A stretch of DNA of 64,000 nt, taken from assembly GCF_002240055.1 (NCBI RefSeq), contig NZ_CP016753.1, forward strand, positions 248,001 through 312,000, given 5' to 3'. The notes beneath the pieces were generated by a model. It was given only the letters and a program-made list of their open reading frames with translations, was not told where the DNA came from and ran no database searches. Below, piece after piece: positions 16,820 to 34,819 of the stretch; position 1 is the stretch's first letter, and each line of letters begins with the position of its first letter. The DNA is from Leptotrichia sp. oral taxon 498. Its GTDB lineage: Bacteria > Fusobacteriota > Fusobacteriia > Fusobacteriales > Leptotrichiaceae. The position numbers were made by a program, and so were the translations under genes.

Positions 16820-18360
16820 AACTGTTACAATGATTCCTGCAAGAAGACGAGTGGGAAATACGGTGCGAGAAGAGGAAAGACCAAAGCTTAGAGTTGCTGC
16901 TTACTGCCGTGTTTCTACGGACAGTGACGAGCAGGCTACAAGCTATGAAACACAGGTGGAGCATTACATCAGTTATATTAAGAAGAATCCCGAATGGGAA
17001 TTTGCGGGAATATTTTCTGATGACGGTATCAGCGGCATCTACACCAAGAAACGAGAAGGCTTCAATAAAATGATTGATGAGTGTATGGATGGAAAAATCG
17101 ATATGATCATCACAAAATCGATCAGCCGATTTGCAAGAAACACTCTGGACTGCCTTAAATTCATAAGACAGTTAAAGGAAAAGAACATTCCCGTATTTTT
17201 TGAGAAGGAAAATATCAATACGATGGATGCAAGGGAGAGGTACTGCTTACCATCATGGCTTCTCTGGCACAGCAGGAAAGCCAGAGCTTATCACAGAATG
17301 TGCAGTACCGATACCAGAACGGGCAGATGAGCATTAATCATAATCGATTCCTTGGTTTTACGAAAGATGAAGATGGGCATTTGATTGTAAAGCCGGATGA
17401 GGCGGAAGTGGTAAAAAGAATTTACAGATAGTATCTGGAAGGGGCAAGCCTCCAGCAGATAGCAAAGGGGCTGGAAACTGACGGCATTCTAACAGGAGCC
17501 GGCAAGAAAAAGTGGAGACCGGAAACCTTGCACAAGATTCTGCGAAACGAAAAATATATCGGAGATGCCCTTCTTCAGAAAACCTATACGGTGGATTTTT
17601 TGAATAAAAAGCGAGTTCAGAACAAAGGAATTGTGCCGCAGTACTATGTGGAAAACAGTCATGAAGCCATTATTCCAAGGGATATCTTCATGAGAGTGCA
17701 GGAAGAAATGGTACGAAGGGCAAACCTTCACAGTGGAGAAAAGCGAAAGAAGAGAGTGTACAGCAGCAAGTATGCACTTTCCAGCATCGTGTGCTGCTCC
17801 AAGTGCGGAGACATTTATCGCAGAATAACAGAGGAAAGCGTTCCACAGTGTGGAGATGCTGCACCAGAGTTGATTTTGGCCCCGGCAAGTGCGATGCACC
17901 AACTATCAGCGAAGCAGAACTCCAAGATGCAGCTGTCAAGGCAATCAATAAGGCACTTAGTGGCAGAGAAGATATGATGAAAGGTTTGCAGGAGAACATC
18001 GAGAAAATATTGTCTGAGGGTTCTGATACGGCAGTTTAGGAAATCGACAGTCGATTATTGGAACTGCAGAAGGAACTGCTCAAGAAAGCCAATGCAAGGC
18101 AGAACTACGATGCTCTTGCTGATGAGATTGAAGCCTTGCGAGAACAGAAACATACAGTTATGGTAGAAAGTGCAGAACGGGAAGGCATAAAGAAGCGAGT
18201 AGCTGAGATGCAACAGTTTCTTGCGGAACAGAAAACGGAAATCACGGAATATGATGAAAGTCTGGTCAGACAGCTAATCGAGAAGATAACCGTGTATGAG
18301 GATCAATTCGAGGTGATGTTCAAGTCCCATACGACTGTGGAGATAAAAAGAATATTTTGA
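16806..18360 (+). pseudogene. Second large serine recombinase, several disabling mutations
   Basis: The intact start ([15 protein letters not shown]) leads into [21 protein letters not shown] and [11 protein letters not shown], a full resolvase domain. Then: a frameshift near 17235 (one G lost in AAGGGAGAGG); an in-frame TAG at 17428-17430 inside VVKRIYR[15 protein letters not shown]; another frameshift near 17826 within the zinc ribbon ([12 protein letters not shown]); and a TAG at 18037-18039 before EIDSRLLELQKELL. The coiled-coil tail continues to 18360. The accumulated lesions show the gene is dead, so this module can no longer move the element by itself. Confidence 0.85.
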
Positions 18361-18363
18361 TGG

Positions 18364-18397
18364 ATACCCTATGGCATTGCTGTGGGGTATTTTTTAT
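18364..18397 (+). terminator. Intrinsic terminator of the serine recombinase module
   Basis: ATACCC pairs with GGGTAT around a loop containing GGCATTGC, followed by six T, immediately after the recombinase stop. Confidence 0.6.
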
Positions 18398-18437
18398 GAC
18401 TTGACATTATTGTCCGGCAGAGTGATTTATATAGACG

Positions 18438-18470
18438 CAAAAAATCCGTTCTGGCGACACCAGAACGGAT
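18438..18470 (-). terminator. Minus-strand intrinsic terminator
   Basis: ATCCGTTCTGG and CCAGAACGGAT form a perfect 11-bp stem around CGACA (18444-18470). On the minus strand it is followed by a run of six T, so it stops transcripts from the integrase direction. Confidence 0.7.
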
Positions 18471-18493
18471 GAAAATGCAAAGTGTATATTTTA

Positions 18494-18516
18494 CGCAGAG
18501 TGTTTTACTCTATGAA
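18494..18516 (+). repeat. Inverted repeat, left copy, flanking the integrase and operon promoter
   Basis: Twenty-two of 23 bases match the reverse complement of 19890-19912. The core is AGAGTGTTTTACTCTATGAA, itself partly palindromic (AGAGT..ACTCT). It lies downstream of the integrase gene. Confidence 0.8.
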
Positions 18517-18521
18517 AAACA

Positions 18522-18554
18522 AGCCATTTCCTTCGATATTACAGGGAAATGGCT
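18522..18554 (-). terminator. Intrinsic terminator of the integrase gene
   Basis: AGCCATTTCC and GGAAATGGCT form a perfect 10-bp stem directly behind the integrase stop codon on the minus strand, followed by TTGTTTTTC. Confidence 0.7.
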
Positions 18555-19709
18555 CTAAATTTGACGATTTATTTGACGGCTAATAAAATCAGAAAGCATA
18601 TTCATGTTTTTCTGCTTCAGCTCCATTGACGGGTGGACATATCGGTTTAATGTTATGTTTACAGATGCGTGTCCTAAAATTTCACTCAGACTCTTAATGT
18701 CAAATCCAAGTTCTATGCACCTCGTGGCAAATGTATGCCTGAGTGCATGGAAGTTCGCCGGGGCAATTCCTGTTTTCTTAATCATAGATTTGAACCTGTT
18801 TTGCATGGTTCGTGGCTCCACATATAGAGTTGTCTTTCCGGTAAGGAAATAGGTATTAGGTGCATTTTGGCGTTCCTGAAGCATAAGCAGGAGCTTAATG
18901 GGAACATCTCTAACGGAGTACGCACTCTTAGGCGCAGAGATGATGATTTCTGATTTATGATCCGAGTTGCTTTTCACTTGAATTCTCTGCATTGTTTTAT
19001 GAACGTGGATACAATTATCTCGAAAAGATATATCTTCCCATTTCAACGCACATACTTCTCCAACACGGAGCCCTGTATAAAGACTTAGAAATATCCCAAT
19101 ACCTGTGTTGCTTGATTCTTTTAACAAATATTCTGTTAACAAGGATTGTTCGGCTTGACTGAGTATCCTCATCTGCTTTTGTGGCTGCTTGACATTTAAG
19201 CCGTTGAAACTGATAAGTGTGCATTGTTTTGTCTCTGCTGTGAACTCAAATATATTTTTCATAACAGAAATAATGCTGTTAACGGTCTTAGGGGCAAGAC
19301 CAGCATTATTTCTTCCACTACTCGTCAGCAATTTCGATATGTAAGATTGGATATCTGTCCTTGCAATATTTGTAATATTTCTCTGTCCAAATTCCGGAAG
19401 CAGATGATTGTTAAGGATATTTATATATTTTGCAGTGCTGGATTCCTTCCACTGCGATTTATTTGCTTGTATCCATTCATCGGATGCTCTGGAAAATGAA
19501 CAAATTAATAACTCTGAAGCTATAACAGGTACTGCAGAGGTGTTTGATGCAAGGCGAGTCTTAGCGTCCGTTAGCTTAATTTTTACTTCCTTATATGAGC
19601 GAGCAAATACATATCCATATTTTGCTTTGCCATTGATTCGATCTCGAATATATCGTCCTTCCCATCTGCCGTCTTTTCGCTTGTAAATATTTTCGCCTTT
19701 TCTCGGCAT
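18555..19709 (-). CDS. Tyrosine recombinase / integrase
   Basis: The 384-residue protein has the Tn916/phage-type architecture: an N-terminal AP2-like arm-binding part (YKRKDGRWEGRYIRD), a SAM-like core-binding domain (residues 75-165) and the catalytic domain with TGLRVGEVCALKW (first Arg), HALRHTFATR (His/Arg), and LGHASVNITLNRYVH (His/Trp position and Tyr nucleophile). No catalytic residue is missing and the gene looks intact. It reads away from the cargo operon. It probably moves the accessory region or part of it; alternatively, because of the inverted repeats on both sides, it may act as an invertase. No excisionase gene is visible next to it. Confidence 0.9.
   Translation of the reverse strand: MPRKGENIYKRKDGRWEGRYIRDRINGKAKYGYVFARSYKEVKIKLTDAKTRLASNTSAVPVIASELLICSFSRASDEWIQANKSQWKESSTAKYINILNNHLLPEFGQRNITNIARTDIQSYISKLLTSSGRNNAGLAPKTVNSIISVMKNIFEFTAETKQCTLISFNGLNVKQPQKQMRILSQAEQSLLTEYLLKESSNTGIGIFLSLYTGLRVGEVCALKWEDISFRDNCIHVHKTMQRIQVKSNSDHKSEIIISAPKSAYSVRDVPIKLLLMLQERQNAPNTYFLTGKTTLYVEPRTMQNRFKSMIKKTGIAPANFHALRHTFATRCIELGFDIKSLSEILGHASVNITLNRYVHPSMELKQKNMNMLSDFISRQINRQI
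18573..18585 (+). repeat. 13-bp direct repeat (TTGACGGCTAATA), copy 1
   Basis: An identical 13-mer occurs at 19737-19749 just outside the integrase start; this copy is inside the last codons of the integrase. Arm-type integrase binding sites would have such a layout. Confidence 0.6.
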
Positions 19710-19736
19710 AATATCACTCCTTTCATGACTCTATTA

Positions 19737-19749
19737 TTGACGGCTAATA
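19737..19749 (+). repeat. 13-bp direct repeat (TTGACGGCTAATA), copy 2
   Basis: This is identical to 18573-18585 and lies 28 bases beyond the integrase start codon. The two copies bracket the integrase gene. Confidence 0.6.
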
Positions 19750-19823
19750 TAGCAGTTTATACAAACTAACTGACATATTTTTGTAGTACACGACAAATTT
19801 CTGCACAATGAACTTGCGACATA

Positions 19824-19852
19824 TTGACAAATAATACGATAAGTTGTATAAT
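19824..19852 (+). promoter_or_regulatory. Sigma-70 promoter reading into the HTH gene and cargo operon
   Basis: TTGACA (19824-19829) and TATAAT (19847-19852) are perfect consensus hexamers with a 17-base spacer. The predicted start near 19859 gives a leader of about 120 bases containing the right inverted repeat (19890-19912). The promoter itself lies inside the segment bounded by the inverted repeats. Confidence 0.75.
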
Positions 19853-19889
19853 TTCAATAGTTATTCGTTGAATTGGTGCTAAAAAACGC

Positions 19890-19912
19890 TTCATAGAGTA
19901 AAACACTCTACG
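19890..19912 (+). repeat. Inverted repeat, right copy, in the operon leader
   Basis: This is the reverse complement of 18494-18516 with one mismatch. It lies between the operon promoter and the HTH gene, so it is also transcribed in the leader. Confidence 0.8.
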
Positions 19913-19977
19913 AATAAAGAATCATGATAAGGAATTACTTTAAAGCTGGCATCATAAATTTTATCTATGGAGGGAAT

Positions 19978-20277
19978 ATGAAAGCATTTGAGATGGAAGC
20001 AAAAAAAGAATTATGTTGTATTCAGCTAGTCAATGATTTGCCTGTACTACGTGCTCGTCTTGGTGTTTCACAAGAAGAAGTTGCAGAAAAAATAGGTGTT
20101 TCAAGACAAACTTATAATTCATATGAATCAAAGAAGGGAAAAATTCCATGGAATATATGCATAGCATTAGTTTCTTATTTTGTTAGTAACAGTAAGACTC
20201 TTGAAATGATAAAAGGCAATACGTACACTTTGGAACTCATGGAAGAAATCTTTAACTCAAACTTCCCACACCAATAA
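19978..20277 (+). CDS. Cro/CI-type HTH transcriptional regulator
   Basis: The 99-residue product has an HTH_3 domain: LRARLGVSQEEVAEKIGVSRQTYNSYES, at about residues 27-55. I start at ATG 19978 because GGAGGG lies 5 bases upstream; the upstream ATG at 19924 has no ribosome site. It is the first gene after the consensus promoter and precedes the GTPase/Hsp70 operon, so it probably controls that operon or its own promoter. No effector-binding domain is evident. Confidence 0.85.
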   Translation: MKAFEMEAKKELCCIQLVNDLPVLRARLGVSQEEVAEKIGVSRQTYNSYESKKGKIPWNICIALVSYFVSNSKTLEMIKGNTYTLELMEEIFNSNFPHQ

Positions 20278-20343
20278 GGTGCGAATCCCATTTTGGGTAT
20301 AGGAAGTCTTAGTCTTTAAATAAAAAGGAAGAGGGAAAAAATT

Positions 20344-21966
20344 ATGTTTGAACTAATAGCAGCCATTATACTTATTTATCTTGCATACTTACTGATTGTA
20401 AAAGTGTTGATACCAGTTGGTGCTGTTGTAGGTGGAATCGCTTTGGTTATAGTTGCAGGAGTAGCTGTAATTGTTGGCTTTTTCACAGCATTTGCAAACT
20501 ATATTAAGGCTGTGCGAGAAAATATTAATTTTAGAAATTGGGAATGGGAAAAGGATGATGAACCGGCAAAACGCAGCTATTTTTTTGGACCTGGATATGC
20601 TCAATTAACAGGAACCATTAAAAAAGCTTTTGAACTAAATGCACTATCAGGAGAAAAAGTTAGTACAATTGCAAAAGGGTTTAAGGGCGATAGCGATGGA
20701 ATATGGGGAGGAATTAAATCAATATATGGTGTTATATATCTGATTATTGCTGATATATGTATTTATGTTATTGGTTCTTTATTATGTGCTGTATTCGGAA
20801 TTATTCATGGAGCTATTACATCGGTAATAATGATATTAACTTATATTATTTTTATAATCGTATGGATAATTGACAGATTGTATTTGCTTAAAAATGAGAT
20901 TAGATCAGACTGTCCAGTTTGTCATAGTAGATTCTTGATCCCTACATTCATGTGTCCTGAATGTGGAGCAATGCACAAGAAACTTGTTCCAGGACCATAT
21001 GGAATATGGAAGCACAAGTGTACTTGTGGACATAAAATTCCATCAACTTTTCTTAGTGGTAGATCAAAACTTGATGCGTATTGTCCAGATTGTGGATCTC
21101 CTTTAGTTGCGTCAGATGCAAGACAGCTTGTCTTTCAGTTGATTGGTGGAAGTAAATCAGGAAAAACAGTATTTCTGTCAGCGTATTTCCATGAATATTT
21201 AGAAAAATTAAGAAAGAATCGAAATTTAGAGATTGAAATTTCAGACCAGTATCAGCCATTTTTTGCTGAATTAGAAGAATGGTATAGCGGTGTCGAGTGT
21301 CCTGCTACAGCGCAGCTTAATTCGCAAATGTACCCGCTGCTAATTAATAGTTCATTGGGAATAAAGCGTCAGTTTTCTATTTATGATATTGCGGGAGAAA
21401 TGTTTGATGGATTTACGGCAGAAAGTGAAATCCTTCAGCAACAATTTCATTATTGCAATGGCCTTTTATTCTTAATTGATCCTTTCAGTAGTGGAAATCT
21501 TCGTGAGGATAGAATCAACTCTGGTGAAGACATGTCGGACTTTAGTGATATGCCGGTTGAGGATGTGGTAACGAATTTTATAAATTATCTTGTTACTATA
21601 GGACATAAGAAAGCAAATGCGAGATGTACAATACCTATGGCAGTACTAATAGCAAAGGCTGATGTGAGAGAAATTAAAAGGGTAATTGGCCCTGCTAAAA
21701 TTTCGAGTGTGTTCAAGAATAATCAAAATGGATATACAAGTTATGATGAGGCTCGTGATGGTGAATGCAGAAAGTTTTTGATGGATATCGGTTTGTCTGC
21801 AACAGTAGAAAATCTAGAGACGGAGTTTTCAAATTTGCATTATTTCCCTGTAAGTGCTATGGGACATGCACCAGATGGAAGTGAATATGAACCGTGGGGT
21901 GTCACAGATGCAATTGATTGGATGTTGCCGTTAGCAGATAAGGAGTTGGCGGATCTGATTATGTAA
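20344..21966 (+). CDS. Membrane-anchored zinc-ribbon GTPase (double-GTPase/DO-GTPase-like)
   Basis: The 540-residue protein has two N-terminal membrane helices (about 1-50) and two more (about 128-180), then three paired-cysteine zinc ribbons (CPVCHSRF..CPECG, CTCG, CPDCG). A TRAFAC-type GTPase domain follows: P-loop GGSKSGKT (about residue 267), switch-II-like DIAGE (about 350) and AKAD (about 435) in place of NKxD. This layout fits the bacterial GTPases paired with GAP1-type proteins in conflict systems; a second GTPase and a GAP1-like gene lie downstream. It is the first structural gene of the operon and likely places the complex at the membrane. Exact family naming is from memory of motifs. 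Confidence 0.75.
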   Translation: MFELIAAIILIYLAYLLIVKVLIPVGAVVGGIALVIVAGVAVIVGFFTAFANYIKAVRENINFRNWEWEKDDEPAKRSYFFGPGYAQLTGTIKKAFELNALSGEKVSTIAKGFKGDSDGIWGGIKSIYGVIYLIIADICIYVIGSLLCAVFGIIHGAITSVIMILTYIIFIIVWIIDRLYLLKNEIRSDCPVCHSRFLIPTFMCPECGAMHKKLVPGPYGIWKHKCTCGHKIPSTFLSGRSKLDAYCPDCGSPLVASDARQLVFQLIGGSKSGKTVFLSAYFHEYLEKLRKNRNLEIEISDQYQPFFAELEEWYSGVECPATAQLNSQMYPLLINSSLGIKRQFSIYDIAGEMFDGFTAESEILQQQFHYCNGLLFLIDPFSSGNLREDRINSGEDMSDFSDMPVEDVVTNFINYLVTIGHKKANARCTIPMAVLIAKADVREIKRVIGPAKISSVFKNNQNGYTSYDEARDGECRKFLMDIGLSATVENLETEFSNLHYFPVSAMGHAPDGSEYEPWGVTDAIDWMLPLADKELADLIM

Positions 21967-22000: not shown

Positions 22001-23137
22001 ATGGCATTAGATAATAAGCTAAAGTCAGAAATGACAGGTAGTGGAACTTGTTCGAGTCAGAACAGTACAGCACCGGTTCCAAATTTCCAAAATACTCAAT
22101 CTGAATCTGAACCATCTGTACAGGGTACACGGATAGATGATGGGAAAGTTTCTCCGAAGGCGGTGCCGAAACCACAGCCAACAGTTCATCAGGAGTCTCA
22201 TGACTCCACGGAAATGCTTTTAATATCTATTGAAAAGCAACTAAAGTCATTAAATCAAAGTGTGGCAGATTTAGAGCAAGAAGTTAGTTCTTGTAAGAAT
22301 CCGGATTATAGAGTTGTATTTTCTAAAATTGATTCCGCAAGAAGTAGCATTGAGAAAATGATTTTGGGGATTAGTGAAAATCAAAATACTTCAAATGATA
22401 GCTGTTTAGTAGAAAAAATTGCAAAATTTGAAGAAATACTCATTGCGGTAACTGAAAAGCAAGATAAAAATGATAGACAGCTAGCACAGACATTAAGGGA
22501 AAATGCGAACTTCCAAATCCAGGTACGCCAAGGAATGCAAAAGGATCTCGATGTACTGAAAGAACAACAAAGCGGAGAACAATTTAATCCAATTTTAAAA
22601 GAAATTGCTTCAATGTATGTTGAGTATCAAACTTTACTTGAGGATGAAACTATCTCAGATTTATCTAAGAAAAATCTCAAAGCATTGTTTGAACAGATGG
22701 AAGATTTACTCATAGATTATGATGCAGAAATAACTCGTAGTGAGGTGGGAGACACTCGACAAACAAGAAGCACAAAGATTATTGAGAAGGTTTCTACTGC
22801 TGATCAGGAGAAGCACAATACTATAGCAACAAGCAGAAAACCGGGCGTTTTGAGAGGCAGAACAGTTTTATATCCTGAATTTGTAGATGTCTACGTATAT
22901 GATCCTACTATTATTCAAGAGGAAATATTTGATCAAGCTTCAACAGATCTGGATAATAATCTGGAAGAGGGGCTAGCAGGGAATATCATTACGGAAACTG
23001 TTGTTAGTGAAGCCCCATTAGAAAGTGCTAGTGATTGCGATGCTGTTGATGTAAATGAAGAGGCCACTTTAGAGAATTGGATAGATAAAGAAATTCTTGA
23101 GGAAGACGAAGAAAAACACATAGATAAGGAGAATTGA
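22001..23137 (+). CDS. Coiled-coil protein with GrpE-like C-terminal part
   Basis: The N-terminal 75 residues are disordered (Ser/Thr/Pro/Gln-rich), followed by a long coiled coil (about 75-235). Residues about 240-300 then resemble the GrpE head: a short helix pair, DTRQTRSTKIIEKVSTADQ and KPGVLRGRTVLYPEFVDVYV, matching the GrpE pattern 'G..L..RVLRPA.V.V'. An acidic tail follows. GrpE is the nucleotide-exchange factor of Hsp70, and two Hsp70 genes follow immediately (this stop and the next start are 1 base apart). I infer a dedicated exchange factor for the island's Hsp70s. The resemblance is by eye only. Confidence 0.6.
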   Translation: MALDNKLKSEMTGSGTCSSQNSTAPVPNFQNTQSESEPSVQGTRIDDGKVSPKAVPKPQPTVHQESHDSTEMLLISIEKQLKSLNQSVADLEQEVSSCKNPDYRVVFSKIDSARSSIEKMILGISENQNTSNDSCLVEKIAKFEEILIAVTEKQDKNDRQLAQTLRENANFQIQVRQGMQKDLDVLKEQQSGEQFNPILKEIASMYVEYQTLLEDETISDLSKKNLKALFEQMEDLLIDYDAEITRSEVGDTRQTRSTKIIEKVSTADQEKHNTIATSRKPGVLRGRTVLYPEFVDVYVYDPTIIQEEIFDQASTDLDNNLEEGLAGNIITETVVSEAPLESASDCDAVDVNEEATLENWIDKEILEEDEEKHIDKEN

Positions 23138-23138: not shown

Positions 23139-24755
23139 ATGAGCACATATGGTATTGATTTAGGAACAACTTACTCTTGTATTGCAACTTTAGATCGTAA
23201 TGGTAATCCTGAAGTTGTTAGAAATCAAGCGGATGCAAGTGATACTTTGGCATCAGCAGTATTTTTTGAAAGTGCAGACAATGTTGTTATTGGTAATAGT
23301 GCCAAAGATATGGTTGAAACAGATGGAGAAAGAGTTGTCCAGTTTGTAAAACGCGAAATTGGAAAACCTAATGCACGCACTTATGAATTTGATGGAAAAA
23401 CATACACTCCAGTCGAGATTAGTGCACTTATTCTTGGCCGTTTGAAGCAGATGGTTGAAGAGCAGGGTGGTTCCGTAGATGATGTTGTTATTACCTGTCC
23501 TGCGTATTTTGGTCTTGAAGAGCGTAATGCAACAAAAGAGGCAGGCAAACTTGCGGGTATGAATGTTCGAAATTTAATTAACGAGCCTACAGCAGCGGCA
23601 CTTAGCTATTGTGCTCGTCAATTCCAAGAAGAAAAAACTATTTTAGTTTATGACCTTGGTGGTGGTACATTCGATGTTACTATTGTAAAAATGTCACTAG
23701 TAATGAATAGCGATGGAAACGAGGTTCAGATGGTTACTGTTATTACAACAGGTGGCAATGATGAACTTGGTGGTAAAGATTGGGATGATAAGCTTTTCGA
23801 TCACATTCTTCAGGCTTGCTGTGACGAAAATGGCCTCACACCAGACGAAATTGATGTTGAAACTCGTCAGCTGATTAGAAGTCGTGTAGAAATTACCAAG
23901 AAGAAGCTTAGTAATGCTGAGACAGCAAAAGTAAAGATAAATGTCAATGGTGCGATGACCACAATTAATATTACCCGTGAAGAGTTTGAAAATCTTACTT
24001 CGGATAAAGTGGCTCAAACTATGACATACGTTGAAGACACTCTGCAGAAAGCTGGAAATATTGAAATCGATACGGTGTTACTTGTGGGAGGTTCTACATT
24101 TATGCCGATGATTCGTAATGCAGTAGAAGCAAGATTTCCTGGAAAAGTGCAGATTGAGGATCCGGATAGAGCAGTTGCAAAGGGAGCTGCAATTTGTGCA
24201 AGTATGTTAGTTGAAGAAGCAGAAGCACCTTCGCCGGAACCTGTTGACCCGGAACCTCAGCCATCGCACGGAAGTGGTCTTTCTAAGAGATTTGTTGTTG
24301 TAGATCAGACTCCTCGTTCTTTCGGTCCTGGTGTATTAAATGAAGTTGGTGATTATATTATTGATAATATAATTAAAATGGGAGAAATTATACCAGCAAC
24401 AGCTGTGAAAACTTACTACACAGCGGCTGATAATATGGAGAAGATTGTTCTTCGTGCTTTTGAGAATATGTCACAGGACGAAATCCTTACACCTTGTGTG
24501 AATAACATGGGTGAACCACAGCAGACCGATCCGGCACATAACGTAAAGCTTCTGGGCGAACTTGAGATGCTTTTACCTCCTAACACAAAAAAGGGATCTC
24601 CTATAGAAGTTACTTTCCAGATAGATGCAGTTGGTGTATATGTAAAGGCTGTAAATCTTTCTACCGGTGAAATTGTGGAGACTACACTTAGAATGGAATC
24701 TGATGTTGATGCAGAAACAAGTGCAGTTAATCAGGTGAGTATTTCTGCCGAATAA
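23139..24755 (+). CDS. Hsp70/DnaK-family protein of the GTPase island
   Basis: The 538-residue protein carries GIDLGTTYSCIA, TCPAYFGLEERNATKEAG, INEPTAAALSY, YDLGGGTFDVTIV and LLVGGSTFMP, so the ATPase domain is complete. A Pro/Glu/Ser linker (PSPEPVDPEPQPS, about residue 365) replaces the usual hydrophobic interdomain linker, and the remaining about 155 residues form a beta-rich region without the helical lid. It is therefore not a standard DnaK. It follows the GrpE-like gene with overlapping control signals (AAGGAG inside the upstream coding end) and is followed by a hairpin terminator that may set its level above the next genes. Confidence 0.9.
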   Translation: MSTYGIDLGTTYSCIATLDRNGNPEVVRNQADASDTLASAVFFESADNVVIGNSAKDMVETDGERVVQFVKREIGKPNARTYEFDGKTYTPVEISALILGRLKQMVEEQGGSVDDVVITCPAYFGLEERNATKEAGKLAGMNVRNLINEPTAAALSYCARQFQEEKTILVYDLGGGTFDVTIVKMSLVMNSDGNEVQMVTVITTGGNDELGGKDWDDKLFDHILQACCDENGLTPDEIDVETRQLIRSRVEITKKKLSNAETAKVKINVNGAMTTINITREEFENLTSDKVAQTMTYVEDTLQKAGNIEIDTVLLVGGSTFMPMIRNAVEARFPGKVQIEDPDRAVAKGAAICASMLVEEAEAPSPEPVDPEPQPSHGSGLSKRFVVVDQTPRSFGPGVLNEVGDYIIDNIIKMGEIIPATAVKTYYTAADNMEKIVLRAFENMSQDEILTPCVNNMGEPQQTDPAHNVKLLGELEMLLPPNTKKGSPIEVTFQIDAVGVYVKAVNLSTGEIVETTLRMESDVDAETSAVNQVSISAE

Positions 24756-24780
24756 AACATTCTTAGTTAAATAAATGAAA

Positions 24781-24815
24781 ATGCGCTATGCGTCTGTGGC
24801 GCATAGCGTATTTTT
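24781..24815 (+). terminator. Internal hairpin terminator / attenuator
   Basis: ATGCGCTATGCG pairs with CGCATAGCGTAT (one G-T pair) around a short loop and is followed by TTTTT. It lies between two genes of the same direction and theme, so it probably lets only part of transcription through. Confidence 0.8.
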
Positions 24816-24884
24816 CGTTGAAAAGGATTTTTTTCTAATTAGCAATATGTTGAAAAGCTAAAATTATACTTAGGAGGATTATCA

Positions 24885-27140
24885 ATGGGAATAAAAGTTG
24901 GAATTGATTTAGGCACTACATTCTCAGCTGTTGCGATGATGGATGAGAAAAAAGGACAACCTGTTATTGTTTCTAATACATTGGGAGAAAGAATCACGCC
25001 ATCTGTTATTCAGTTTACAGAGGACGATGAGATAATTGTAGGTGCTGAGGCAAAGGAAGCTTTTGAAGCTGGCGAATCCGGATGTGCCTCTGTGTTTAAG
25101 AGAAGTATGGGAAGTAATGATACATACTGTTCTTTTAATGGGAAACAATATACAGCAGAAGATTTATCTGCAATTTTACTTCGTTATCTTAAAGAAGAGG
25201 CGGAAGCAGTAACGCATCAAAAGATTGATGAAGCTGTTGTGACCGTGCCTGCGTATTTTTATCACAAGGAGCGTCAAGCAACCATGAATGCTGCCAAAAA
25301 AGCAGGCTTAAATATTCGCCAGATTATTAACGAGCCAACAGCAGCAGCTATGAACTATGGTGTTAATCATTGGCGTGAAAATGCTCGTGTTTTGGTATAT
25401 GACCTTGGTGGAGGAACATTTGATGTAACTCTTGTACAAATGAAGAAAAACAATCAGATGGAATCTTTACAGACTACAGGAGATCATACACTTGGTGGAA
25501 AAGATTGGGACGCTCGTTTAAGTGCAGAAATTGAAAGCAAAATTGAGAGCGAAACAGGCTTCTATGTCTCAGAGTATCCAGAGATACATCAAACTGTAAT
25601 TCAAAATGCGGAAAATATAAAAAAACAGCTGACAACACGAAATGTTGCAAATGTCAGACTTAATCTTCCAAACTATGGTTGGTATTCAACAACTATATCA
25701 CTTGAAGAATTTGAACAGAGTACAACAGATTTGATTGAAAGAACTGGAACACTTTGTGAAAGTCTTCTAAGAGGATTAGGAATCGGATGGAGAGACATAA
25801 CAGATATTCTCTTGGTTGGTGGTTCTACAAGAATGCGTCAAGTGTCGTCGTATTTGAAAAGAATTAGCGGTCATACACCACTTGCCCAGGTAAATCCAGA
25901 TGAAGCGGTTGCATTAGGAGCTGCTATTCAAGTACATCTTCCATTACCAGAATACAGCGTAATCACTATGGCACCACCTAAACAAGAAAACACCAGCAAT
26001 TCAGAGTTCTTTAAGTTTAAAAGACAGGAGTTGAAAACTGCGTCGCAACAAGCACAGAAGTATACTTTGCCAGGCACTGTTGGAAAGGAAACTGCATTAA
26101 ATAATGCATTGTGTATGAGTCATGTTGATGTAGTTGCACATGCAATGGGGGTCATTGCGGTAAATGCGGAGGGAACGCATTATATCAATAAAACAATCGT
26201 GCCGGCCAATCAGAAAATACCTGTCAAATGTGCAGAAGCATTTCACTACTACACGTCAGCACGTGGAGATAATGAAGTAGAAATTTATGTTTTACAAGGA
26301 ACAAAAGCACCGTTAGACTGTGAAATTATTGGAAAATATGTTGTTTCTGGAATTAGCCATGATAGAACTGACAATCCTACAACAATAAAAATCCAGTATA
26401 GCTATGACATAAATGGCATGGTTCATGTTCAGGCTCGTCAGGGAAGTGGTACAACAGATTTGCCTATTAGAGAAGAGGCTGTTCCAGCTGACATGAGTAA
26501 ATTTGGAAGACCTATTGATCCACAAGAAATGAAGCCAATCGCAGAAGCCTTGTCAGTTGTAATGGCAGTGGATGTTTCGGGAAGTATGTCTGGAAAACCT
26601 ATAGAAGATGCTCGTAATGCAATGTGCCATTTTGTTGATAATTTTGAGGATTATCCAGGAGATGTTGAAATTGGTGTTATTGCAGTATCTGATTCATCAA
26701 AAGTAGTTCAGCCTTTAACTAGCAATTTACACAAGTGCAAAACATCTATCAGATCAATTACTGAGTGCATGACAGGTGTATGTAATGCAGGGCATCCATT
26801 TAATGACATTCAATCTATGCTTGGAAGCTTAGATGGGAAACGTCTAGGAATTGTCCTTGCAGATGGAATGTGGGAGAATCAGTCATTAGCAGTAAGTGAA
26901 GCGAAAAGTTGTCATCGTATGGGAATTGACATTACGGGAATCGGTTTTGGTAGTGCTGATGAAAAATTTTTACGTGATATAAGTTCAGGGGATATTGATT
27001 CCATGCTTGTTGACCAGAGCGAATTGACTCAAAGCTTTGGAAAGATTGCACAGGAAATTGGTGGAAGTAATACAGGAAAGCATGGGCGTACAGGTGCAGA
27101 AACATCAGTTGCTACATGGTTAGCAATTAATGAACAATAG
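24885..27140 (+). CDS. Hsp70-von Willebrand factor A fusion protein
   Basis: Residues 1-370 form an Hsp70 ATPase domain (GIDLGTTFSAVA, VPAYFYHKERQAT, INEPTAAAMNYG, YDLGGGTFDVTLV, LLVGGSTRMRQV). A beta substrate-binding-like region runs to about residue 540 (SYDINGMVHVQARQGSG). A vWA domain starts at about residue 560 with an intact MIDAS motif, AVDVSGSMSG. The fusion of a chaperone ATPase to a metal-dependent protein-binding domain is unusual. vWA domains in bacterial NTPase systems commonly dock partner proteins; here the partner may be the J-like/FN3 protein encoded next. AGGAGG lies before the ATG. Confidence 0.9.
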   Translation: MGIKVGIDLGTTFSAVAMMDEKKGQPVIVSNTLGERITPSVIQFTEDDEIIVGAEAKEAFEAGESGCASVFKRSMGSNDTYCSFNGKQYTAEDLSAILLRYLKEEAEAVTHQKIDEAVVTVPAYFYHKERQATMNAAKKAGLNIRQIINEPTAAAMNYGVNHWRENARVLVYDLGGGTFDVTLVQMKKNNQMESLQTTGDHTLGGKDWDARLSAEIESKIESETGFYVSEYPEIHQTVIQNAENIKKQLTTRNVANVRLNLPNYGWYSTTISLEEFEQSTTDLIERTGTLCESLLRGLGIGWRDITDILLVGGSTRMRQVSSYLKRISGHTPLAQVNPDEAVALGAAIQVHLPLPEYSVITMAPPKQENTSNSEFFKFKRQELKTASQQAQKYTLPGTVGKETALNNALCMSHVDVVAHAMGVIAVNAEGTHYINKTIVPANQKIPVKCAEAFHYYTSARGDNEVEIYVLQGTKAPLDCEIIGKYVVSGISHDRTDNPTTIKIQYSYDINGMVHVQARQGSGTTDLPIREEAVPADMSKFGRPIDPQEMKPIAEALSVVMAVDVSGSMSGKPIEDARNAMCHFVDNFEDYPGDVEIGVIAVSDSSKVVQPLTSNLHKCKTSIRSITECMTGVCNAGHPFNDIQSMLGSLDGKRLGIVLADGMWENQSLAVSEAKSCHRMGIDITGIGFGSADEKFLRDISSGDIDSMLVDQSELTQSFGKIAQEIGGSNTGKHGRTGAETSVATWLAINEQ

Positions 27141-27157: not shown

Positions 27158-30100
27158 ATGGACAGACGAAATTATTTTGAGATTCTTGGACTTGACTTTG
27201 ATCCGCCTGAAAAAAACCAGCGACGTATAGATAAAGCAATTGCTGAGTGGAAAAAGCGTACAGAAGATATGCTTGCAAATGAAACAATTGCAACACGTAG
27301 AGCTGTACTTTCAGACGAATTGTCTCTTCATGATAATATGGTTGAGACTTTACGTGAGAACAAGACCAGAAATATAGAGGCGCGAGCTCTTAAAGAGATT
27401 CGCACTCAACAATTAGAAAAGTTGATTGATATTATGCTGATCGGACAATCGGGAACTCCTGAAGTGACAAATGCACAGATAAGAAATGTGCATTTAAAAT
27501 TAAAATTGTCCCCTAAAACAATAGAAGATACTTACGTAAAAAAAGGATTCGTTATACAGCAAGTAACTAAAACTGTCAATCTTAATGATGCGTTTTTGAC
27601 CACTGTGGTAGCAGGAAATATCAGTAGTAAGATTTCACAGCTTCAAACAATGGCAATACCTAAATATCCGTGGACACCGAATGTTTCAGATTTATATGAT
27701 TTAGCATGTTATTTTGGTGGGGGAAGTGATAGCGATACTGGAAGTTATCACAAAAAAAGAACAACAGAATTATATAGCATTATGGAATCTTGGGCAGCAC
27801 AATTTGCAAGTGATATGAGTACACAAGGTCATTTGTTGGCAGATTTGTTCACAGCTGGAACTACTCAAGTTTTCAACACTGAGGCAAATCGAAAAAAATA
27901 CGATCAGTCTCTAGAACGAGAAAAGATGAAAGAATTCTTTTCATTATTAAAAACTGCGCCAGAAGATTTCAAAAAAGATCGTTACTTTGCGGACAGTTGC
28001 ATTAGAACAATACAAAAGAGTTTTCCGGATTATAATTTATCACTGGCATTATATAATCAGGAAGCCGGACTAATGCAGGATCCATACGAACCGTTAGAAG
28101 CATTAATTCACTTGACGTGTAATTCGTGTAAAGCTCCAGCAGAGTTTAGAACTAGAGAGGACGCTGAACGAGGAAAATGTGCTGTCTGTGGGGCGTCACT
28201 TTATGTCGAGTGTCCAAAATGTCATAAGAAAGTACCAGCGACAGCGGATCGATGTTCTTGTGGATTCCTGATTTCAGAGATGCAATTCTTTGATGATTAT
28301 ATTAAAGCTGCTGAATTTGCTCTTAAAGAAATGGATTTAGGTAAAGCTAGTAAGCAGTTTGCAAATGCAGAAAATGCTTTTCCGGGACATCCAAAACTTT
28401 TAACCTTGTCGCAAAGAATAAAAGCAGAGCGAGACAAGTATGATAAGCCACTCAATGAATTAAAGGCTTTAATAGCTGCGCGTATGTTTAGTAAGGCACA
28501 AACATTATTGGGAGCATTAAGTGCCTCAATGCCTCAATTAAAACTAGATAGTCAGAAGAAAGTGATAGATGAAAAAATGGCAGAAGTTAAACGCTTGATG
28601 CCATCTGGATCACTATCACCTGTTGACAAAGCAAATAGATGCGTAGAAATCCTTCAAATTGTGGAAGATTATCAGCCAGCAATAGATGTATTGATTGCTT
28701 CGAGACCAAGGAAACCTTTAAACTTAAATGCAGCAGTAACGGGAACATCTTCATTGATATGTACTTTATCGTGGAATGCAACTGGTGATAAGGGTATTAA
28801 ATATCAAGTTGTAAGAAAGAAGAATGGTGTTCCGCAAAGACAGGCAGATGGTGAAGTTTTGGCTGCGGATATTGGGGATCTTAGTTATAAGGATACTTCT
28901 TTGCAACCAGGTATTAGCTATGGGTATGCAGTTTTTGCATGCAGAAGAAATGTTTTTTCAGATCCATCTGTATGTGAGATTGCAAACTTTAGTGAATTAG
29001 ATACAAAACATCTTCGAACTTCGGCTGAGAATGGTATTTGTCGTTTTAGTTGGGTTTTACCTCCAAATTGCATTGGAGTCCGTATTCTTAGAAGTACGAA
29101 TGCGATTCCATCAGAAAATGTTACTTCTGGAAGTACTGTTGTAGCTGCTAAGGCATCAGCAAACTTTGATGACTCTGGAGTTTCAAATAACAATACATAT
29201 GGTTATCGTTTACAATGCGTATATCTATATGAAAATAGCTTTAGGTATAGTAAGGGTGTTACTGTCATGCTAACGCCAGAACAACCACCTGTAGCATTAA
29301 GAAATATTACATCACGTATCGAAGGCCGATTAGTTACTATTCGCTGGAATTCACCAGATAATGCACAGAGATCTGTTCTTATCAGGGAAGTTTCTTCAAA
29401 TGCAGCGGCTAATCTTATTGGTCAGGTAATTCCTGCGTCAGATATTAACTCAATGCTTGGAAATGGAAGAAATTATGCGAATACAATGAGTACAACATTG
29501 CAAGCACAGTTTGAAATTCCGCCAAACATGTCGTGTGCATTGGCAATAATATGTGTTGCAGGCTCTAAGGGAATTATTTCAGATATTGTTCGTGTTTCTA
29601 GTGTTGAAAAATGTGAAATTGATAAACGCCAGACGAGAATAGAAGGAAACAGATTAAGAATTGTCCTTGCAAATAAACTTAAAAATTTGGAAAGAATTCA
29701 CTACATTGTCGCAAAGAAGACTGGTTCTACAGTTCCATGGGCAACGATTGAAGATGCGAAACATAAATCGCTATCTATTGTATCATTGAGAGACTATGAA
29801 CGAGATGGGATGATTCTTGTAGAAATGCTTCCTAAAACTGATCTTTATATATCAGTGATTGGACAGTATAAAATGCCAGATGGCAGTACTATTTACTCGG
29901 AACCTTCGAAATTGAGATTAAGTAATAAACCCAAGGAAAAAATAACATATCGATTTAGCTGGAGAACAGGAGGTTTCTTCAGTCGAGCAAAAGCAAAAAA
30001 TTGCAAATTAGTGGTTTATTCGAATGCAGAAGAAACTCCGGAAATATATGTGGTATATAAATCGGACGGGCATATTCCTATGAAATTGCAAGATCCAAAA

Positions 30101-30289
30101 GCAGTTATTATCCATACTATTCCGGAATCGGATAGTGGATTTAATAATGGAGAATACGTATATCAGTTTTCAGATAGTACATGGAATGGAATTTCATCTG
30201 CTACACCAATGAGACTTTTTATTCAAGATGATGATATGACAGAATTTGAAATTGTACCGAGCGATATTGAAAGCTGTAAGGTACCATAA
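27158..30289 (+). CDS. J-like domain, zinc ribbons and FN3-like repeats protein
   Basis: The first 70 residues (MDRRNYFEILGLDFDPPEKN...AIAEWKKR) look like a J-type helical hairpin but no HPD tripeptide is present. The middle (about residues 320-375) has paired zinc ribbons (CNSCKAP..CAVCGAS..CPKCHKK..CSCGF). A helical stretch follows, then at least three beta-sandwich FN3-like repeats (for example LSWNATGDKGIKYQVVRKK and IRWNSPDNAQRSVLIREV). I prefer ATG 27158, with GAGAGG upstream, over the GTG overlapping the previous stop. It probably works as the co-chaperone-like scaffold of the Hsp70-vWA fusion; this is inference. Confidence 0.75.
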   Translation: MDRRNYFEILGLDFDPPEKNQRRIDKAIAEWKKRTEDMLANETIATRRAVLSDELSLHDNMVETLRENKTRNIEARALKEIRTQQLEKLIDIMLIGQSGTPEVTNAQIRNVHLKLKLSPKTIEDTYVKKGFVIQQVTKTVNLNDAFLTTVVAGNISSKISQLQTMAIPKYPWTPNVSDLYDLACYFGGGSDSDTGSYHKKRTTELYSIMESWAAQFASDMSTQGHLLADLFTAGTTQVFNTEANRKKYDQSLEREKMKEFFSLLKTAPEDFKKDRYFADSCIRTIQKSFPDYNLSLALYNQEAGLMQDPYEPLEALIHLTCNSCKAPAEFRTREDAERGKCAVCGASLYVECPKCHKKVPATADRCSCGFLISEMQFFDDYIKAAEFALKEMDLGKASKQFANAENAFPGHPKLLTLSQRIKAERDKYDKPLNELKALIAARMFSKAQTLLGALSASMPQLKLDSQKKVIDEKMAEVKRLMPSGSLSPVDKANRCVEILQIVEDYQPAIDVLIASRPRKPLNLNAAVTGTSSLICTLSWNATGDKGIKYQVVRKKNGVPQRQADGEVLAADIGDLSYKDTSLQPGISYGYAVFACRRNVFSDPSVCEIANFSELDTKHLRTSAENGICRFSWVLPPNCIGVRILRSTNAIPSENVTSGSTVVAAKASANFDDSGVSNNNTYGYRLQCVYLYENSFRYSKGVTVMLTPEQPPVALRNITSRIEGRLVTIRWNSPDNAQRSVLIREVSSNAAANLIGQVIPASDINSMLGNGRNYANTMSTTLQAQFEIPPNMSCALAIICVAGSKGIISDIVRVSSVEKCEIDKRQTRIEGNRLRIVLANKLKNLERIHYIVAKKTGSTVPWATIEDAKHKSLSIVSLRDYERDGMILVEMLPKTDLYISVIGQYKMPDGSTIYSEPSKLRLSNKPKEKITYRFSWRTGGFFSRAKAKNCKLVVYSNAEETPEIYVVYKSDGHIPMKLQDPKAVIIHTIPESDSGFNNGEYVYQFSDSTWNGISSATPMRLFIQDDDMTEFEIVPSDIESCKVP

Positions 30290-30302
30290 GGGAGGAAAAA
30301 AC

Positions 30303-31412
30303 ATGGCTTTATTACACTCAGATGTTCTTTGTCCATATTGCTTACAAGAACTCAGAAGTAGAGATTTGAAAACATTTTGCAATATTTGTGGACATTCAGT
30401 GACACCAACAAGAACAGAGTCGTTATTAAAAAAAATACCAAAATGTAAAGAACCAGGATGTAGAGGATTTGGAAGTGTAAAACAGTGTTCTTATTGTGAT
30501 AGTAATTTGCCTTCAGATATTTTGGATTATGAGAAATATCTGCGTTTCAGTATTTTAGGAATTACGGGTTCTGGAAAAACAAACTTTTTGACAACTATGC
30601 TTCATGAATTGCGTCATACAAGTGGCTCACCATGGGTTCTTTCACCGATGGATGCCAATACAACTGCTATTTTCCAGCAAAATGACAGAGCAATTTATAG
30701 TATGAGACAGCCGGTTGCTGCAACAGCCGCAGGTATGACACCGCCACCCCAGTTGTGGAAAATTAAAGATAAAAATCGAATGACTAATACAGTTATCCCA
30801 TCATATTCTATGACTATTTTTGATGGAGCAGGTGAAGATTGCGAACACATTGTTCCAGTTATCAGCAGATATATTAAGGAATCTAAGGTGCTGGTTATTT
30901 TGATTGACCCTCTTGCGTTACATGGAGTCGCATCTAGTATTCCGCAAAATATTCTGAATTGGTCTACTTCTGCTTCTCATGATACGGATGCGTCTGCAGA
31001 TATGGTAGATGGATTAGCTACATATATTAGACAGAACTGTGGAATTGCACCTGGAAAACTGATAAATAAAGATGTTGCTGTTGTGTTTACAAAAATTGAT
31101 GCTGTAAAAGATACCTTTGGTTCAGCCACAGTTATGCAGCCTAGTCCACATTTGGCACGTAAAGGTTTTGTTAAAGCAGATGCAGATGCAGTTGATGCAG
31201 AGATTAGGGATTGGCTAGAGAGTCAGGGGGAAAATACATTCTTGGATGCGATTGACACAAACTTTAAAAAAGGCGGTGTTAGATTCTTTGGTGTATCAAG
31301 TTTTGGACAGCCACCTACGGGTAGCTATCAGTTAGGAAAAGTAATGCCTCACAGAGTTTTAGATCCTCTAATTTGGATGCTCTCAAAGGAAGGTATTGTA
31401 CCCACGCTTTGA
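30303..31412 (+). CDS. Zinc-ribbon GTPase (double-GTPase-like), soluble
   Basis: Two N-terminal zinc ribbons (CPYCLQE..CNICG and CKEPGC..CSYC) are followed by a GTPase domain with P-loop GITGSGKT (about residue 87), switch-II-like DGAGE (about 178) and TKID (about 265), which reads as the guanine-specificity motif. No membrane helices. I start at ATG 30303 because GGAGG lies 8 bases before it. It is a paralogue in design of the membrane GTPase at 20.3 kb, so the operon encodes one anchored and one soluble GTPase, directly followed by the GAP1-like gene. Confidence 0.8.
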   Translation: MALLHSDVLCPYCLQELRSRDLKTFCNICGHSVTPTRTESLLKKIPKCKEPGCRGFGSVKQCSYCDSNLPSDILDYEKYLRFSILGITGSGKTNFLTTMLHELRHTSGSPWVLSPMDANTTAIFQQNDRAIYSMRQPVAATAAGMTPPPQLWKIKDKNRMTNTVIPSYSMTIFDGAGEDCEHIVPVISRYIKESKVLVILIDPLALHGVASSIPQNILNWSTSASHDTDASADMVDGLATYIRQNCGIAPGKLINKDVAVVFTKIDAVKDTFGSATVMQPSPHLARKGFVKADADAVDAEIRDWLESQGENTFLDAIDTNFKKGGVRFFGVSSFGQPPTGSYQLGKVMPHRVLDPLIWMLSKEGIVPTL

Positions 31413-31449
31413 AACTAGTGTTTTATTTTAAAGAAAGGAAGGCAATATA

Positions 31450-34176
31450 ATGCTAAATCAACTTATTTACACACGGTGTATGCCACATCGTGAGTTGAAA
31501 AATAAAGGGCAAGTGGTTCGTGCAGATGGATTTGGTGTATTTTCTATGAGTCAAGAGTTGATTACCAATCCACCTGTACCTAACTATGATTTTCTTCAGA
31601 CTCGTTTAGCTGTACAGAATGGAGCAAAAGAAACATCGGCTACTGGTTTATTTAATTCATATGATTACACTGCAATTTCTTCCAAGGTATATGCTTTGTC
31701 ATTTGAAGTTGCAAGACCACATTGTAAAGAAGTAAGAAAAAATGGACAGGGCCATAGAACGGGAACATACATTAAGCAGTGCCTTGTTGGAAATCCAGGC
31801 GATTATCCTTTCAAATGGTTTGGTGCATCTGTGTGGGATGCACATTTGAAGTCTGAAAATGACTATTATCTTGATGAAAATCCTAGTGCTGAACCTGTAT
31901 GGCTTAATACGGTGCAGGATATACCAAATGGTTCATACGTTTCTATTGAGAGCGTTAAAAAGTTTGTAAATGCAGGTCGTGCAGAAGCTGTTAAAGCTGG
32001 AATTTGGTTTCTGTTACACGAATATGCAAAACCTGAAAATGAGAGAAAAGTTCTTTTGATTAAGGATATTCCTGAAAATGTGGAATTATGGATTGCAGCC
32101 ATTGAATATGCATTCAGTGCAGAAATGGCACAAAAAATTACTTTCTCAACGAATAAAACAAAACTTGGTACACAGATTGATAATATTTTGTTTTTCTATA
32201 CAGATGAATCTGGAAAGTTTTATCCGATGCGTAACAATAGTATGACGCAGATTAGACATCCGTACAATATGATTGTTGGATATCATCCTAGGGATAATTT
32301 CTGCGCTTCCGTCAAGCAGATGCCGACAAGTAATTTTGTAATGATTGATGGCACTAATAATATGGTATCTTTTGCAACAGACGAAAGCATAAAATCAGCA
32401 TACTACTCTGCGGCTGTTCAGTATGATGCAGATATTATTGATTTTACAAGCGTTGTTTTGCCTAGTTTACCTATTGATATGATAACGGATAAAATTCCGG
32501 AATTGTATGATGCATATAAGTACCTGTTGGATTCCAATCACCGAGTGGAAAAATGGACATACAGAGAAGCAATTGCTGAATTACAGTCTATTACTCAGTA
32601 TGGTATTTCTAAAAATGACGTATTGAATAAGTATATCTTTGATGAGGGGATGCGTGGGTATCAGCGTTTTGCAACAGAAGATGAAAAAAACAATTTTAAA
32701 CTTCTTAAGATTTTCTGGAACATTGCTAAAGTAACAAAACGCACAGGAGAAGTTACAGGATGTTTAGCTGATCTTCTGAGTACAGGAATGATGAACTTAA
32801 AAGTATCCGGAAATACTTTGACAGGTACATGGAATGCAATAAAAGCAGGTGAAGTTCAGAGCATTATTCGTCCTGCATTACAAGATTTGTTCAATGATAG
32901 TGAGTTGACAAGCTATAGTAGTCAGTTTGAAAATGCCCCTGCTTCTGTTGTTAGCACAGTGATGGAAATGTATTTTGATATGCTCTCGCTCGAAAGGAAC
33001 GGTATTAAGTCTATTTTAGAAAGTCAAGCAAAATATCAGTTTGTTTGTCATGCTTTGACTGCATTGATTGATAATAGAAATGCATTACATGCTGTGTTAA
33101 ACGGAATTAGTATTTCAGATGATGTTATAAATGCGGTCGCTTTGTCAGTTTCTGAACATCTTGAAGAATATAAACCGGGAAAAACCGAGGCATGGTGGGA
33201 TTCTATTATTGATCTTTCCGGTGGAAATGTCATGGAATTGTGTAGGACACTTTGTAAGTCTACTCAAACTAATATTGACATGATTGAACATTTACTAGCG
33301 AATACAATTTTAAAAGCAGGAAAATGTGATCGAGATATTTATCGTGCATTTGAGGATTCCATAAAGCAGCTTGGCAAGAGCAAAAATACAGGTATTGCAT
33401 TCTTTAATGCTTGGATTAAAGTTGAAAATTCTTCACACCTTAATAATATCATTCGGAATATTAGAGGGAATAGATTGTCCTCTTCCGCAGAAAAAGAATT
33501 ATTCCACCTTGTTGATAAACAGGTTCCATATGAATCTACGTCAGGAAAAATTTCTATTATATTTAGAGAAATTAAGGAATGGGCAAATGATATTGGGGAG
33601 ATGTCTCAAAGTGCGGCACTTTATGATTTGCGTAAAAATATGGAACGTGAGCGCAAAGCAGAAAAAGTTTTATCAACAATGTATGAATTTTCTGATTTGA
33701 AATTAGAGATACCAGATAACTATTTAAGGAGTCAATATTTTGAAAACTTGGCTCAAACTGCTGCAGATTTTTGCGATCCAGAAGTTCACATGGCTTTCCT
33801 GCATCTTTTTGATATACAAGATATCGGAATAAAGCAGGAATATATTAAGGCTTATGTTGATGAAGTGCTTAATGGTTCAAAAGGAAAACAGTTGGCTTAT
33901 TCAATGCTTAGCTTATGTGAGGCATTCTATTACGAATATAAGATTCCGGGGAAAAAAGCAGTTCAGGTAAAAGAGTCTGCAGATATGCTAAAGGCTTACT
34001 TTGTAAAAACGTTACCAAATCATTACAAACCTAATCTTCCGGATCAGGTTGCAAAAGCTAATTATGATGAGAATCAAGTGAAGAAAATGCTTATAACTAT
34101 GCTTCAGGATGCTGCTAAAAAAGCTCCAAGGAGTGGATTGAGAAGTATCTTGGGTGGATTATTTGGAAGAAAGTAA
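31450..34176 (+). CDS. GTPase-associated protein 1 (GAP1)-like protein
   Basis: The 908-residue protein opens with QLIYTRCMPHRELKNKGQVV, which fits the start of the GAP1-N domain family, continues through an N-terminal alpha/beta region (to about residue 310, including a FSTNKTKLGTQIDNILFF segment) and ends in about 550 residues of helical repeat-like sequence (GAP1-M/C-type). These proteins are encoded next to zinc-ribbon GTPases in bacterial conflict systems and are thought to regulate or couple them; no enzymatic motif is visible. The assignment rests on the N-terminal motif and on the neighbouring GTPase, not on a search. Confidence 0.65.
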   Translation: MLNQLIYTRCMPHRELKNKGQVVRADGFGVFSMSQELITNPPVPNYDFLQTRLAVQNGAKETSATGLFNSYDYTAISSKVYALSFEVARPHCKEVRKNGQGHRTGTYIKQCLVGNPGDYPFKWFGASVWDAHLKSENDYYLDENPSAEPVWLNTVQDIPNGSYVSIESVKKFVNAGRAEAVKAGIWFLLHEYAKPENERKVLLIKDIPENVELWIAAIEYAFSAEMAQKITFSTNKTKLGTQIDNILFFYTDESGKFYPMRNNSMTQIRHPYNMIVGYHPRDNFCASVKQMPTSNFVMIDGTNNMVSFATDESIKSAYYSAAVQYDADIIDFTSVVLPSLPIDMITDKIPELYDAYKYLLDSNHRVEKWTYREAIAELQSITQYGISKNDVLNKYIFDEGMRGYQRFATEDEKNNFKLLKIFWNIAKVTKRTGEVTGCLADLLSTGMMNLKVSGNTLTGTWNAIKAGEVQSIIRPALQDLFNDSELTSYSSQFENAPASVVSTVMEMYFDMLSLERNGIKSILESQAKYQFVCHALTALIDNRNALHAVLNGISISDDVINAVALSVSEHLEEYKPGKTEAWWDSIIDLSGGNVMELCRTLCKSTQTNIDMIEHLLANTILKAGKCDRDIYRAFEDSIKQLGKSKNTGIAFFNAWIKVENSSHLNNIIRNIRGNRLSSSAEKELFHLVDKQVPYESTSGKISIIFREIKEWANDIGEMSQSAALYDLRKNMERERKAEKVLSTMYEFSDLKLEIPDNYLRSQYFENLAQTAADFCDPEVHMAFLHLFDIQDIGIKQEYIKAYVDEVLNGSKGKQLAYSMLSLCEAFYYEYKIPGKKAVQVKESADMLKAYFVKTLPNHYKPNLPDQVAKANYDENQVKKMLITMLQDAAKKAPRSGLRSILGGLFGRK

Positions 34177-34184
34177 TAATTAAC

Positions 34185-34244: not shown

Positions 34245-34246
34245 GT

Positions 34247-34507: not shown

Positions 34508-34536
34508 ATGTTTCGATAATAGGAAGGAGAATTGAT

Positions 34537-34797: not shown

Positions 34798-34819
34798 TAA
34801 TAAAGGATGGACACATTTT

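Follow-up and report, generated by a model that had tools for sequence, protein, structure and literature searches.

The closest described systems are the GTPase-centric conflict systems of the GAP1-N2 type, which include an HSP70/GrpE theme (Kaur et al. 2020, PMC7159879). In the consulted parts of that paper, the theme is described as a mobile operon with DO-GTPases (carrying zinc ribbons, hydrophobic segments and a Walker B glutamate), GAP1, an FNIII protein fused to DnaJ or TPR, HSP70 and GrpE. Cytoskeleton-like or multimeric assemblies are proposed there for these systems, with tubulin and HSP70 variants. In other themes the vWA domain is encoded by genes of its own or occurs in fusions with other parts. 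The consulted text makes no mention of a fusion between Hsp70 and vWA, and no other report of one was found in the open-access literature.

Hsp70-like and vWA domains also occur within one predicted defence locus in the CoCoNuT/TerY-P systems, as in the locus studied here. In the consulted parts of their description (PMC11090510) Hsp70 and vWA belong to different proteins, and the fusion partner of Hsp70 is McrB or McrC, whereas in our locus Hsp70 and vWA are fused to each other. No McrB-type GTPase was matched among the scanned cassette genes.

The RavA-ViaA type is a MoxR-vWA chaperone pair. Such pairs and the present fusion would work alike, as an NTP-driven chaperone with a vWA partner, but the fusion uses Hsp70 and not an AAA+ MoxR ATPase, and is one protein. 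MoxR-vWA pairs are named in the consulted parts of PMC7159879; no MoxR-type AAA+ ATPase was matched among the scanned cassette genes.

The operon and its conservation

The window, that is, the whole stretch of 64,000 nucleotides that was analysed, contains an operon that fits the HSP70/GrpE theme of the GAP1-N2 systems well. Its features are as follows.

20344 to 21966, plus strand: DO-GTPase with hydrophobic N-terminal segments and zinc-ribbon cysteines (PF19975, 30.8 bits, cut-off 27; hydropathy; sequence)
22001 to 23137, plus strand: candidate GrpE-like nucleotide exchange factor, 378 aa (hhalign to the L085 protein)
23139 to 24755, plus strand: companion Hsp70 without lid, 538 aa (PF00012, E 1e-84; own clade in the ATPase-domain tree)
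24885 to 27140, plus strand: Hsp70-vWA fusion, one uninterrupted ORF, 751 aa
26571 to 26585, plus strand: first MIDAS motif of the fusion, D563-V-S565-G-S567 (DVSGS; alignment)
27158 to 30289, plus strand: J-like/FN3-like protein, 1043 aa from its ATG, with a J-like N-terminus without HPD and zinc-ribbon-like and FN3-like parts (the listed ORF starts at 27140)
30303 to 31412, plus strand: second DO-GTPase-like protein with zinc-ribbon cysteines (PF19975, ~18 bits, under cut-off; ATG inferred from the G033 homologue; the listed ORF starts at 30246)
31450 to 34176, plus strand: candidate GAP1 protein, 908 aa (PF20014, GAP1-M, 20.1 bits, under the cut-off of 24)
34247 to 35194, plus strand: small proteins with a repeated KKLTQKEYEAIR..YEKRYGYDSRS..EEK-like motif

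As in the published theme, the window has DO-GTPases with zinc ribbons, hydrophobic segments and a Walker B glutamate, which in the first DO-GTPase lies in the motif DIAGE; the second, under the Pfam cut-off, contains GxxxxGKT and DGAGE. The two HSP70s with a GrpE-like protein are a further likeness, as are an NBD-only extra HSP70 in the relative L055 and a mobile neighbourhood with variable neighbours (an NS_2 nuclease here and a TNT-type domain beside L063), both of which could be variable effectors. The window differs from the theme, as set out in the consulted parts of its description, in having vWA fused to HSP70 and in the HerA-like ATPase, nuclease and immunity protein that follow.

The GrpE-like protein of the window gave no direct GrpE match. 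It aligned by hhalign (91%) with the L085 protein, which is a PF01025 GrpE (E 8.1e-11); GrpE is over the cut-off in L085 and L063 and below it in L056. Likewise, GAP1-N2 was not matched by Pfam in the window GAP1 protein, while in the L085 GAP1 both GAP1-N2 and GAP1-M are over the cut-off, and the two proteins align by hhalign at 96.7% over 131 columns. The putative GrpE-like and GAP1 assignments in the window rest on these relatives. The J-like part was supported with two bridging rows from other operons and lost without them (hhalign 61% over 21 columns); its model consists of two helices only, and the HPD motif is absent. The FN3-like part was matched only via NCBIfam CbhB (E 2e-4). In other operons, paired lidless Hsp70s were found (L087-L090), and in two of these loci (L088 and L089) they adjoin a gene for a J-like protein that has NAP at the HPD position.

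The order DO-GTPase, GrpE-like, Hsp70, Hsp70-vWA, J-like/FN3-like, DO-GTPase is conserved in the five loci with the whole stretch visible (the window, L008, L055, L056 and L085). A GAP1 match comes next in four of the five (the window, L008, L055 and L085), and in L056 a 950-aa frame at this place has no match to the window GAP1. The middle three genes are present on the short contig of L084. L057 contains two tandem fusion copies, with no DO-GTPase match in 3.9 kb downstream, and L009 retained the fusion and lost nearly everything else, with no counterpart of window positions 27504-41034. Beside the unfused operon L063, a frame with a TNT-type toxin domain (PF14021; 16435-17463, minus strand) lies directly upstream of the GrpE-like gene and runs to the contig end. 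The extra NBD-only Hsp70 of L055 (12347-13483, minus strand), located between the companion Hsp70 and the fusion, has an altered phosphate loop, GYS versus the usual GTT, and resembles the HSP70 described by Kaur et al. that lacks a peptide-binding domain.

The class of the system is thus already published, and the exchange of a lid for vWA appears undescribed in the open-access literature, of which PMC7159879 and PMC11090510 were consulted in part. The earlier note on this DNA, which drew attention to the fusion, had missed this published class, as well as the mobile island, the absence of lid and linker, and the presence of co-chaperones and GTPases in the operon.

Architecture of the fusion protein

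Hsp70 and vWA are joined in frame without stop or shift, as the earlier note had read them: the ORF is open from 24885 to 27140, and both Pfam domains are over their cut-offs, with HSP70 (PF00012) at residues 5-355 (whole-protein E 4.4e-101) and VWA (PF00092) at residues 558-711 (E 1.1e-12). The domain order is an ATPase domain (~1-355), a low-confidence linker (~356-411), a beta substrate domain (~412-535), the vWA domain (~555-711) and a polar C-terminal tail. A further HSP70 stretch falls on the beta substrate domain (~residues 434-524, genome 274184-274456). An assembly artefact or frameshift was ruled out, the frame being open and conserved across other assemblies.

The ATPase-site residues DLGTT, K72, E150 and GGGTFD with T178 were located by alignment with relatives and with the DnaK of the host itself, and we assume for them the roles known from DnaK. 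They are conserved in all eight fused rows that have an ATPase domain. In the vWA domain all five MIDAS positions (D563, S565, S567, T630 and D660) were found in the alignment, so that the description of the MIDAS as intact was borne out for its residues, and metal binding is predicted. DxSxS and the last D are present in nine of nine aligned vWA rows and are retained at overall identities as low as ~35%; the threonine is V in the paralogue L057b and alignment-shifted in L085, L056 and L086. With both sets of residues kept, the proposed coupling of ATP-driven chaperoning to metal-dependent docking is possible.

Like DnaK, the fusion has an ATPase domain with catalytic residues and a beta substrate domain; unlike DnaK, it has neither a helical lid nor a DVLLLD-type linker, and vWA stands at the lid position. 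Of the "ATPase and substrate domain" described previously, the ATPase domain was upheld and the substrate domain is the beta half only, because no lid columns align with relatives or with host DnaK and vWA follows directly after the beta substrate domain. The DVLLLD-type hydrophobic linker is absent, and a variable stretch of ~55 residues (pLDDT < 50) is found instead. With both the DnaK-type linker and the helical lid lost, vWA occupies the place of the lid.

An AlphaFold model of the fusion, built from seven sequences, gave pLDDT values of ~80-95 for the ATPase domain, ~65-85 for the beta domain and < 50 for vWA, the last of which we think is due to the few relatives in the model input. The top Foldseek ranks for this model were DnaK and BiP structures.

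Compared with L008, dN/dS (NG86) was 0.037 for the whole frame and 0.059 for the vWA part, values that are rough because dS > 1, indicating purifying selection on the whole fusion frame. NG86 dS was saturated for L055, whose ATPase part gave no value.

Between the companion Hsp70 and fusion genes, the window has a strong terminator-like hairpin (24776-24816; -25.4 kcal/mol, z -6.2). The corresponding gap is shorter in L008 (9952 to 10001), and the fusion gene may be separately controlled in the window.

Distribution, descent and genomic island

Public genomes were searched for relatives of the fused protein, and an initial scan gave three loci. Within the family of the host, the full-length fusion was present in one of 33 genomes, the host's own; its absence from the other 32, 12 of them of the same genus, rules out a vertically inherited host gene. 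Among 391 genomes sampled from the class of G034, the C-terminal half was matched in 9, and the substrate domain and vWA were both covered in three (G034, G219 and G269). In a sample of its phylum, the profile was matched in 11 of 398, with both parts covered in four (G034, G532, G689 and the divergent G792); G034 is common to the two samples. Five of 250 genomes from the class of G033 were matched, and both parts were covered in G033 alone, which was the starting genome.

The cassette-type fusion is thus found in eight assemblies, G035 and the host included, plus G792. This figure counts whole and cut copies (the L009 fusion lacks its first 181 residues at a contig end, and L010, from the same assembly as L057, is cut before vWA), and L086 is counted apart. 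The domain search and taxonomic survey that had been proposed therefore confirmed the fusion, with relatives in seven other assemblies, most of them with the same gene order; the doubt that it might be unique to one assembly and split in all relatives did not hold. The fusion is rare and scattered among genomes, and it is real and old.

An ATPase-domain tree was built with 26 rows, in which L010 is labelled as fused despite its cut before vWA and from which L009 was left out. Eight cassette rows, L010 among them, form one clade (support 98/99). The companion Hsp70s form a separate clade (support 96/94), to which the only Hsp70 of the unfused operon L063 also belongs. The L086 fusion is placed elsewhere, beside another Hsp70 of the same locus, with long branches there. 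Judging from these positions, the fusion probably has a single origin within the cassette lineage and another, separate one in L086. The L086 gene (9580-11655, minus strand) encodes an independent-looking Hsp70-vWA fusion of 692 aa in a different context, with two further divergent Hsp70-like genes.

GAP1-M was present in 12 genomes, and an Hsp70 match was found in two of their 12 loci (L055 and L063); the absence of Hsp70 in several of these loci says little, because the contigs are only 3-9 kb. The fusion had no match in phages, nor in viral contigs by protein or profile search, and the matches in plasmids (three records, 29-30%) were to vWA only; carriage by phages or plasmids was therefore rejected.

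The operon of the window lies in an island with the following further features.

14811 to 41781, no strand: island collinear with G033 (blastn pieces at 67-81% DNA identity, gaps on the left; GC above flanks)
18555 to 19709, minus strand: tyrosine integrase of the island (PF00589, E 9.4e-27)
35216 to 38689, plus strand: HerA/FtsK-like ATPase, 1157 aa (PF01935, E 1.9e-11; common to G033 and G219)
38695 to 39246, plus strand: NS_2 DNA/RNA nuclease, candidate effector (PF13930, E 1.1e-35)
39248 to 39658, plus strand: YezG-like immunity protein (PF04634, E 1e-8; ATG inferred from the G033 homologue; the listed ORF starts at 39188)
39662 to 40774, plus strand: transglutaminase-like protein (PF01841, 23.9 bits, cut-off 23)

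GC content is 0.33-0.44 across 15 to 41 kb, with one 1-kb bin of 0.31 at 41 kb; it is 0.22-0.33 to the left of the island and declines gradually from ~0.35 to 0.25 to the right. A homologue of the integrase precedes the G033 cassette. The island was acquired horizontally, its right end is not fixed, and the fusion has spread horizontally. A search for exact 15-base direct repeats between 14300-20400 and 41000-52000 found none. Frames at 14814-18357, which we take to be of the serine-recombinase family from their similarity to G033 frames, look broken in the window and are whole in G033; they mark the left side of the island. Close to its right edge is a Radical SAM/SPASM peptide maturase-like gene (42712-44010).

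The island also encodes YccF and another hydrophobic protein, and the HerA-nuclease-immunity-transglutaminase-YccF block, or most of it, is present on the G033 and G219 contigs as well. Another transglutaminase-like gene is found near the L056 operon. The nuclease carries the motif EGGHLIG..FGG...DNLVP, presumably its catalytic motif. Scanning of the cassette genes with PADLOC gave weak Hsp70-like and HerA matches only, except that the ATPase at 35216 had a stronger match of the HerA/mad8 type.

Possible role of the fusion

The reading that we prefer, at about even probability, is that a mobile DO-GTPase conflict system of the GAP1-N2 type has two Hsp70s dedicated to it, of which the fusion is one; vWA would dock a partner, the GTPases and GAP1 would act as a switch and the nuclease would be the likely effector. 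The fusion would then most likely be a chaperone dedicated to handling the effector, with ATP and GTP as its switches, and we infer the following mechanism. The long variable linker and the C-terminal vWA would have taken the places of the conserved hydrophobic linker and the helical lid. With the GrpE-like protein recharging the ATPase and the J-like/FN3-like protein engaging it, the ATPase would drive cycles in which the open beta substrate domain binds and releases a client encoded in the operon. A lidless Hsp70 would hold clients loosely, so vWA may give a second grip on a specific partner; with bound metal it would dock a partner peptide, taking over part of the work of the lid. Near the membrane, the two DO-GTPases and GAP1 would form the switch that times the reset of this grip; when they sense an invader, they would allow the effector to be released or activated by the chaperone assembly.

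The likeliest candidate effector is the NS_2 nuclease encoded nearby, which would otherwise be restrained by the YezG-like immunity protein. No nuclease was found among the eight flanking genes scanned of the distant fused operons L085/L093 and L056/L095.

It seems rather unlikely that the fusion is an assembly scaffold whose two parts, vWA and Hsp70, build NTP-driven multimers at the membrane, and that it does not handle a single client effector. The presence of two Hsp70s, the NBD-only third copy in L055, the tandem fusion copies in L057 and the hydrophobic N-terminal segments of the DO-GTPase would agree with this, as would the multimeric or cytoskeleton-like assemblies proposed in the consulted parts of PMC7159879; however, the beta substrate domain is retained under purifying selection, which pure scaffolding does not demand.

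The integrase-borne island, the patchy distribution and the effector-like neighbours make it improbable that the operon acts in stress of the membrane or envelope, or helps to fold a secreted or surface product, with the nuclease-immunity pair as mere island cargo. Such a role could account for YccF and the other hydrophobic protein on the island, and for the related operon L063, which adjoins a gene that we take from its sequence to be recA-like and is thus not obviously mobile. DO-GTPase is, moreover, placed in envelope-stress operons in the consulted parts of a paper on the PSP response (PMC11237479).

Unfused lidless relatives (L063 and the companion Hsp70s) and the loss of the MIDAS threonine in one paralogue could suggest that vWA adds nothing essential to a lidless Hsp70, but this is very improbable given the dN/dS of 0.06 for the vWA part and the retention of DxSxS and D down to ~35% overall identity.

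A narrower form of the reading as an effector-handling chaperone, which we hold tentatively and consider doubtful, is that vWA is a metal-gated substitute lid, the helical lid having been exchanged in a bacterial Hsp70 lineage for a vWA that clamps one specific partner and so makes a general chaperone into a dedicated GTPase-controlled latch on the nuclease effector. No experimental test of an Hsp70-vWA fusion protein was found in the open-access literature, nor was an experimental study of the predicted conflict-system class, of which the fusion, if the reading is right, would be a concrete component. A single protein would then also combine the cycling of Hsp70 with the docking of vWA, which are two chaperone logics, and the lid of Hsp70 would be exchangeable for an unrelated domain.

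Elsewhere in the window, positions 509-11098 hold a further chaperone-like cluster with a DnaJ-domain protein (2105), a full-length Hsp70 (3589), DKNYY proteins and an AAA-ATPase_like protein. Hsp70s of ~610 aa related to this cluster are present in the same genus.
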